Source: Lipingzhangella halophila
GTDB lineage: Bacteria > Actinomycetota > Actinomycetes > Streptosporangiales > Streptosporangiaceae
Length of the DNA stretch: 64,000 nucleotides
Assembly (NCBI RefSeq): GCF_014203805.1
Contig: NZ_JACHJT010000002.1
Coordinates: 496,001-560,000, forward strand
Direction: 5' to 3'
The translations under genes were made by a program, and so were the position numbers. Each line of letters opens with the position of its first letter. Within the stretch, counting starts at the first letter, position 1. Shown in pieces: positions 50,659 to 53,726 of the stretch. The notes under the pieces are model-generated. The model saw only the letters and a list, made by a program, of their open reading frames with translations, did not search any database and was not told where the DNA came from.

Positions 50659-50687
50659 TTGCGTTTCGTAATGGGAGACGCTACTCT
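50659..50687 (+). promoter_or_regulatory. Promoter of the ABC-F gene
   Basis: TTGCGT (50659-50664) and TACTCT (50682-50687) are separated by 17 nt. Transcription from about 50694 would give a leader of about 250 nt before the ABC-F start, which is unusually long in this window. Nothing is seen in 50480-50658. Confidence 0.55.
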
Positions 50688-50712
50688 CCGAAACGGCTCT
50701 GTTGTCTCCGGT

Positions 50713-50833
50713 GGAGGTGGATTGGTGCGCATCTGAGGTCCGCGATCACCACGCGGTACGGCGTTCGCCGTTAGCCCGTCACGGTACTAGCCGGCGTTCC
50801 CGCCGCCCGTGACCCGCGTGGATGCGACCTCAG
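50713..50833 (+). promoter_or_regulatory. Structured leader with 3-codon uORF (attenuator candidate)
   Basis: A strong GGAGG (50713-50717) precedes GTG CGC ATC TGA (50725-50736), encoding Met-Arg-Ile. The stop overlaps the first arm of a nested structure: P1 CTGAGGTC (50733-50740) with GACCTCAG (50826-50833); P2 CCACGCGG (50749-50756) with CCGCGTGG (50814-50821); inside are P3 ACGGCG-TT-CGCCGT (50758-50771) and P4 GTCACGG (50778-50784) with CCGTGAC (50807-50813), capped by CGGCG/CGCCG. A ribosome stalled on the uORF would open P1. No T-tract is present. Confidence 0.6.
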
Positions 50834-50947
50834 TGGACGACCCGTCCTTGCCCCCCGAAGAGCCAACCTCTCTTCCCGGGTTCGCCGTCGCGTGGTGCTC
50901 GCATACGTACGTCCCTGCCCATCGCGCCTGTGACTGCGAGAACCACC

Positions 50948-52629: not shown

Positions 52630-52911
52630 TCACGCCACCCGCGGTGCGGCGGGGGCGGGGTCCGGCGCGGGGCTGTCCAGGGCACCGACGAGGCTGTCCA
52701 GGGACAGCCCCAGCGCCGCCCCCAGCGCGGCGATGGTGAAGAACGCCGGGGTGGGGATGCGCCCGGTCTCGATCTTGCGCAGGGTCTCCACGGAGACCCC
52801 CGCCTGCGCCGCGACGCTCGCCATGCTGCGCTCGCCGCGCGCAGCACGCAGCATCCGGCCCAACCGCTCACCACGGTCGCGCTCGTCATCGGTCAACGGG
52901 ACTCGAACCAT
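52630..52911 (-). CDS. Small XRE-family regulator
   Basis: The 93-residue product has a Cro/CI-type helix-turn-helix: RLGRMLRAARGERSMASVAAQAGVSVETLRKIETGRIPTPAFFTIAALGAALGLSLDSLV. It ends soon after. It is divergent from map with 50 nt between the starts, a common pairing in actinobacteria. A dyad in the gap is the likely operator. It converges on the ABC-F gene with only 20 nt between the stops. Confidence 0.87.
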   Translation of the reverse strand: MVRVPLTDDERDRGERLGRMLRAARGERSMASVAAQAGVSVETLRKIETGRIPTPAFFTIAALGAALGLSLDSLVGALDSPAPDPAPAAPRVA

Positions 52912-52961: not shown

Positions 52962-53726
52962 ATGGTTGAACTGAAGACCCCCGGCGAGATCGACGCGATG
53001 CGCGCCGCCGGCCGGATCGTGGCGCGGGCGCTCGCGGCCGTCCGCGAGCGCGCGGCCCCCGGTGTCCAGCTCCGGGAACTCGACGAGACCGCCGCCAAGG
53101 TCATCGCGGACGCCGGCGCGGAACCGCTGTTCCTCGGCTATCACCCGGACTGGGCGCCCATACCGTTCCCCGGAACCATCTGCGCCAGCGTCAACGACGC
53201 TGTCCTGCACGGCATCCCCACCGACCTGCGGCTCCGGGACGGCGACCTCGTCAGCGTCGACTGCGGGGCACGCCTGCACGGCTGGTGCGGCGACGCCGCG
53301 ACCACCTTCGTGGTCGGAACCGCCGGGCCGGCCGACACCGCCCTGATCGAGGCGGGCGAACGGGCGCTGCGCGCCGGGATCAAGGCGGCGCGGCCGGGAA
53401 ACACGATCGGCGACATCGCGGCGGCGATCGCCGGTGTCGCGCGCGGCGCCGGGTACGGGATCCTCGACGACCAGGGAGGGCACGGGATCGGGCACGAGAT
53501 GCACGAGGCGCCGTACGTACCCAACGAAGGGCGGGCCGGACGCGGGATGAAGCTGCGGCCGGGTCTGGTGGTCGCGATTGAGCCCGTTCTCACCGGCGGG
53601 GACGACGCCGCGTGGACCGCACCCGATGGCTGGACCGTGCACGCCGCCGACGGCAGCCGCAGCACGCACTGCGAGCACACGGTCGCCGTCACCACGAGTG
53701 GCCCGCGTGTGCTCACCCTGCAGTAA
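52962..53726 (+). CDS. map: Type I methionine aminopeptidase
   Basis: The 254-residue protein has the M24 pita-bread fold with all metal ligands: Asp in LVSVDCGARLHGW, Asp in CGDAATTFVV, His in QGGHGIGHEMHEAP, Glu in VVAIEPVL and Glu in HCEHTVAVT. Its substrate pocket reads ICASVNDAVLHGIP. The start has GGGAGAACGGC upstream. It removes the initiator Met from new proteins. It is likely an accessory copy, since it is isolated from ribosomal protein genes and coupled to an XRE regulator. Confidence 0.93.
   Translation: MVELKTPGEIDAMRAAGRIVARALAAVRERAAPGVQLRELDETAAKVIADAGAEPLFLGYHPDWAPIPFPGTICASVNDAVLHGIPTDLRLRDGDLVSVDCGARLHGWCGDAATTFVVGTAGPADTALIEAGERALRAGIKAARPGNTIGDIAAAIAGVARGAGYGILDDQGGHGIGHEMHEAPYVPNEGRAGRGMKLRPGLVVAIEPVLTGGDDAAWTAPDGWTVHAADGSRSTHCEHTVAVTTSGPRVLTLQ

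Follow-up and report, generated by a model that had tools for sequence, protein, structure and literature searches.

A predicted drug-sensing leader with two mutually exclusive helices upstream of an ABC-F gene in Lipingzhangella halophila and related actinomycetes

Introduction

The 64,000-nucleotide stretch of the Lipingzhangella halophila genome that was analysed here (the window) contains a gene for an ABC-F ribosome-protection ATPase, and the gene is preceded by a structured leader with a three-codon upstream open reading frame (uORF). The locus raises the question of whether this leader adjusts expression of the gene to antibiotics and, if so, by which rearrangement and at which level. 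A first-pass annotation of the same DNA had proposed ribosome-mediated attenuation through the uORF and four nested stems. In Streptomyces coelicolor, uORF translation and drug-induced expression have been shown for are5sc (SCO6720), and toeprints placed the stall caused by lincosamides, streptogramin A and pleuromutilins at the start codon (PMC12421871). The leader in the window is probably a drug-sensing translational attenuator of the ABC-F gene. The basis for this reading is conservation, competing helices, covariation, geometry and an exclusive gene association.

Materials and Methods

Leaders were gathered from three sources, namely 200 genomes belonging to the order, a public genome collection and additional sequence retrievals; 134 of the leaders were usable. 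Helices were evaluated by comparing own partners with swapped ones, and long-range pairing by a mutual-information scan. For the X:Y helix (Table 1), a column-based covariation test was substituted for the duplex-energy swap inside single clades. A stalled ribosome was modelled as 31 nt around the P site that were kept unpaired, with folding at equilibrium and the order of transcription ignored.

Results

Distribution of the leader and its association with ABC-F genes

The uORF, its ribosome site, P1, P2 and the two inner hairpins described by the first-pass annotation are all present at the sequence level (Table 1). The same layout was found upstream of the same kind of ABC-F gene in more than 130 actinomycete relatives, and it is therefore not due to chance. 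The leaders comprised clade A (n = 64, including the window; mostly TTG CGC ATC TGA), clade B (n = 42, Streptomyces where named; TTG CTC GTC TGA) and the more distant clade C (n = 28), in which the uORF is varied. A core profile, for which the copy in the window was one of 37 training rows, gave one credible match in the window's genome, with an E value of 2.8e-12 compared with 0.07 for the runner-up. Over 297 genomes of the class it gave 41 matches; 39 were checked, the window included, and 36 of these precede an ABC-F gene. For the remaining two, in genomes G014 and G009, the homologue search placed an ABC-F gene beside the match. No Rfam family matched the window when gathering thresholds were applied.

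Table 1. Predicted features of the leader and the gene that follows it (positions within the window).
Feature	Position	Strand	Evidence and remarks
Probable promoter, TTGCGT - 17 nt - TACTCT	50659..50687	+	Sequence; inferred from position
uORF Shine-Dalgarno, GGAGG	50713..50717	+	Sequence; purine-rich site conserved in relatives
P1 outer extension, with the uORF region	50719-50726 with 50840-50847	+	Minimum-energy fold and partner-swap test
Three-codon uORF, GTG CGC ATC TGA (fMet-Arg-Ile)	50725..50736	+	Sequence and 134 leaders
P1, 8 bp, CTGAGGTC with GACCTCAG	50733-50740 with 50826-50833	+	Predicted fold; nearly invariant across clades
X, switch strand (P2 5' arm), GCGATCACCACGCGG	50742..50756	+	Mutual information and covariation; partners 50814-50821 (OFF) and 50888-50902 (ON)
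P2, 8 bp, CCACGCGG with CCGCGTGG	50749-50756 with 50814-50821	+	
P2 3' arm, CCGCGTGG	50814..50821	+	Fold and swap test; would keep X hidden in the OFF state
Two hairpins within P2, ACGGC/GCCGT (50758-50771) and GTCACGG/CCGTGAC (50778-50813)	50758..50813	+	
Y, anti-Shine-Dalgarno strand, TCGCGTGGTGCTCGC	50888..50902	+	Able to pair with X or with the ABC-F ribosome site
Anti-Shine-Dalgarno hairpin, GTGGT.CTCGCA (50892-50903) with TGCGAG.ACCAC (50935-50946)	50892..50946	+	Masks the ABC-F ribosome site
ABC-F ribosome-protection ATPase, 553 aa	50948..52609	+	Start ATG 50948

Placement of the leader upstream of other genes was considered and rejected: the three weakest profile matches (L195-L197) lack a neighbouring ABC-F gene and appear to be chance matches. 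One of them, L195 (G370:C1:1082571-1082664), contains a three-codon TTG CTC CGC TGA, then a perfect 11-bp P1-like stem and, after it, copies of TACCTCAGG, and is probably fortuitous. In two more distant ABC-F relatives (L157 and L158) the leader is a different one, and its longer uORF has GDDDISG or DDDISG at its C-terminal end, which resembles the tiaA uORF of S. coelicolor (MVGDDDISG). Genome G031, of the same genus as the window, has neither a close ABC-F relative nor a leader match, which indicates that not every member of the genus has the locus.

The ABC-F protein matched NCBIfam NF000355 (E 3e-101, below the cut-off of the model), and full-length relatives with 68-81% identity share its start at or near the same place. 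It is 67-72% identical to the products of genes with an MLV leader and is a candidate ARE5 ABC-F. On the 3' side of the gene, the genes for a small helix-turn-helix regulator (52633-52911, minus strand) and a type I methionyl aminopeptidase (52962-53726, plus strand) are arranged divergently.

A uORF of constant length

Every one of the 134 uORFs is three codons long and ends in TGA. The start codon is TTG in 128 leaders, GTG in six and ATG in none, and 20 distinct peptides are encoded. What is conserved among the uORFs compared is length, a non-ATG start and spacing, while the peptide varies. The Shine-Dalgarno GGAGG is separated from the uORF by 7 nt in the window. The -10 box ends 34-37 nt 5' of the uORF in 119 of the 134 relatives (37 nt in the window), and automatic promoter scans did not rank the TTGCGT/TACTCT pair best in the window. 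An in-frame TTG at 50722, one codon 5' of the GTG start, makes a four-codon uORF (MVRI; 50722-50736 of the window) possible. Three leaders (L020, L021, and L024) that were left out of the 134-leader set have a one-base deletion near the uORF stop, which changes TGA to TAG and retains three codons; their P1 3' arm reads CCTTGG instead of the usual CCTCGG.

Competing helices

The stop codon of the uORF sits within the 5' arm of P1. Against shuffles, the folding energy of this one leader stood out only modestly, with z = -2.7 over its full length and z = -1.6 over the core, and the case therefore rests on the relatives. The first-pass annotation had suggested a search for compensatory changes, and this check, once run, distinguished among the helices: P2, the outer extension of P1, the anti-Shine-Dalgarno hairpin and the X:Y pair were all better with their own partners, whereas P1 is nearly invariant and its covariation is therefore uninformative. 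Across all leaders, 0 of 2000 permutations reached the score of P2, of the outer P1 extension or of the anti-Shine-Dalgarno hairpin; inside single clades, the same swap tests were weaker and often not significant. A hairpin in which the uORF Shine-Dalgarno would pair with a conserved 5' segment (GTCCTGT..) was also considered and rejected, as its own pairing was no better than swapped pairing and was worse over all leaders. The four-stem layout is thus present as described, but it had left out the outer P1 and the hairpin at 50892-50946, and its inner hairpins are variable: the alignment has them shortened, altered or absent in other clades, and both are probably dispensable.

The part that the first-pass annotation missed is the switching helix X:Y. 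Among contiguous long-range signals in the mutual-information scan (106 leaders), X:Y ranked first; the top entries of the full ranking are mixed, since the clades differ at many positions. When 90 distinct rows were aligned on the core, 87% of pairs were formed over the 12 pairs, compared with 21-53% for slid versions. Two-sided changes occurred in 9 of the 12 pairs; for example, the pair at x-4 differs between clades (C-G to G-C), and five leaders (L025, L029, L113, L120, and L149) have G-C in place of A-U. The covariation score was higher than all 1000 shuffles overall and for clade A alone, and not clearly so for clade B, in shuffle statistics that are inflated by sequence relatedness. Binding energy was approximately -21 kcal/mol for own X and Y, -15 to -16 kcal/mol when clades A and B were exchanged (a cost of 5-6 kcal/mol), and -9 kcal/mol for random positions. 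Swapping X and Y inside one clade had no significant effect on duplex energy because both strands barely vary and some anchors were misplaced. The X:Y helix and the anti-Shine-Dalgarno hairpin exclude each other, and the latter conceals the Shine-Dalgarno of the ABC-F gene.

Stall position and the proposed switch

All 134 leaders have the CACC core of X at +20 to +23 relative to the uORF start (106 of them at +23), although the spacing between uORF and gene ranges from 150 to 259 nt. When the footprint of a ribosome on the start codon was kept unpaired, the number of X:Y pairs rose from 0.0 to 5.0 in clade A, from 1.1 to 8.2 in clade B, and from 0.7 to 7.6 in clade C, and pairing of Y with the ABC-F ribosome site dropped in the folding model. 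The gain was highest for a ribosome placed on the start codon or on the codon preceding it, smaller at codon 2, and almost nil at the stop codon; a block of equal size placed elsewhere in the leader had no effect on folding. In the leader of the window, X:Y rose from 0 to about 3.6 pairs, with a clear shift at the start-codon position only, which is weaker than in the relatives. On average, the ABC-F ribosome site became barely more open in the stall models, and this is a weakness of the model support.

In the proposed OFF state, folding of P2 and of P1, outer extension included, would conceal X, and Y would be free to pair with the ABC-F ribosome site. In the ON state, a ribosome would be halted at the uORF start codon by a drug that acts on the peptidyl transferase, such as a lincosamide, streptogramin A or a pleuromutilin. 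The halted ribosome would cover the 5' arm of P1 and leave P2 unsupported; X, which would begin just past the ribosome edge, could then pair with Y, and the ABC-F ribosome site would lose its partner. The sensor would be the position of the stall and not the peptide. Ribosome-mediated attenuation of an antibiotic-responsive ABC-F gene, as originally proposed, is well supported. The earlier suggestion that a stalled ribosome covers the P1 arm and frees expression agrees with this scheme in the covered arm, but the repressor would be the anti-Shine-Dalgarno hairpin about 60 nt downstream rather than P1, and the released element would be the 5' arm of P2, which captures the anti-Shine-Dalgarno strand.

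Level of control and alternative explanations

Control could instead be transcriptional, with a premature terminator after P1 as the OFF element and the same rearrangement preventing it, as proposed for are5sc and lmrC. GUS fusions of are5sc pointed to control at the transcriptional level (PMC12421871), lmrC was subjected to mutational tests that agree with such a mechanism (PMC8546547), and 13 of the 42 clade B leaders contain terminator-like sites 3' of P1. However, such sites occur in just 4 of 64 clade A leaders and 3 of 28 clade C leaders, none was found in the leader of the window by scans that require a U-tract and would miss Rho-dependent ends, and the conserved OFF element is a hairpin over the ribosome site. 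An intrinsic terminator after P1, not found in the leader of the window and uncommon in relatives, was rejected, and the short transcripts that the first-pass annotation had expected near 50840 have no sequence support. Transcriptional attenuation is therefore considered unlikely for this leader. Translational control is favoured for it, because a covarying hairpin would hide the ABC-F ribosome site. The are5sc data do point to transcription, so double control or a difference between clades is possible.

Another explanation is that the leader is structured and constitutive, with a translated uORF, stems that do not respond to drugs, and conservation that reflects mRNA stability or coupling. 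The G+C-rich stems match a G+C-rich genome and the fold of the single sequence stands out only modestly, as this explanation would have it, but it is very unlikely given that two mutually exclusive helices are both conserved, that the spacing is fixed and the uORF length invariant, and that the are5sc relative is drug-induced (PMC12421871). Recognition of Met-Arg-Ile together with a macrolide, in the manner of the ermC and ermD leaders, would agree with the presence of MRI in 59 of 64 clade A leaders and with the MRI-encoding uORF of Clostridioides difficile cplR (PMC10201436). Such peptide-specific stalling is extremely unlikely here: the same switch occurs with 20 peptides in 134 leaders, and on the published are5sc uORF, stalling is caused by lincosamides, streptogramin A, and pleuromutilins but not by erythromycin (PMC12421871).

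Discussion

Beyond the translational attenuator proposed for the window, we lean towards the view that these leaders may form a widespread, undescribed actinomycete RNA family that senses drugs purely by the stall site. A three-codon non-ATG uORF of any sequence would lie at constant spacing from a strand that takes part either in P2 or in pairing with the anti-Shine-Dalgarno, and the family would be tuned to start-codon stalls and read early-elongation inhibitors as a class. This scheme accounts for a uORF peptide that varies freely against a fixed length and position. It predicts that drugs stalling at the start codon would be inducers and that others should not induce, and similar sensors could be found through geometry. 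For intrinsic resistance genes of actinomycetes, for which the published proposal is a terminator/anti-terminator, it offers a switch that is testable down to single base pairs.

In ermC-type translational attenuators, ribosome stalling releases a strand, which then sequesters the one that masks the Shine-Dalgarno, and ermC requires a specific 19-codon leader peptide. In contrast, the uORFs of the leaders compared here have three codons of no fixed sequence, and the proposed stall is at the start codon.

The layout was taken as new by the first-pass annotation, but the leader of the sister clade matches the published are5sc leader (PMC12421871). The clade B uORF TTG CTC GTC TGA (MLV) and the overlapping CTG AGG TCC TGA (LRS) match both are5sc uORFs, TTG start included (PMC12421871). 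Since S. coelicolor is absent from the control genomes listed with a match, this link rests on the published uORF peptides. Clade B and the window share P1, X, the P1 3' arm, Y and the hidden ribosome site, and the window has a three-codon non-ATG uORF with its own Shine-Dalgarno, as in are5sc-type leaders. The leader of the window differs from that of are5sc in encoding MRI instead of MLV and in lacking the second uORF and a terminator-like site (PMC12421871). The are5sc leader was described with terminator and anti-terminator forms, and the sections consulted do not describe the X:Y switch (PMC12421871). Neither the switch helix nor the start-codon tuning was found described in the related attenuator literature examined. 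By analogy, we infer that the leader of the window would act like are5sc, with control on translation.

The cplR leader of C. difficile likewise has a three-codon Met-Arg-Ile uORF before an ABC-F gene, is induced by the same drug classes and hides the ABC-F Shine-Dalgarno in the OFF state; unlike in the window, its OFF state relies on an intrinsic terminator that carries a U-tract, and cplR belongs to a different ABC-F subfamily, ARE1 (PMC10201436). The MRI peptide common to both is likely convergent. The leader of lmrC, an ARE5 ABC-F gene of Streptomyces lincolnensis, also works by ribosome-mediated attenuation, which responds to lincosamides, streptogramin A and pleuromutilins, but this leader, unlike that of the window, has a validated terminator (PMC8546547). 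Disruption of lmrC uORF2 resulted in constitutive expression (PMC8546547), whereas the opposite would be expected for the leader of the window. Judged from its sequence, the leader of the window is a relative of a known attenuator and belongs with the drug-inducible ABC-F attenuators of actinomycetes.
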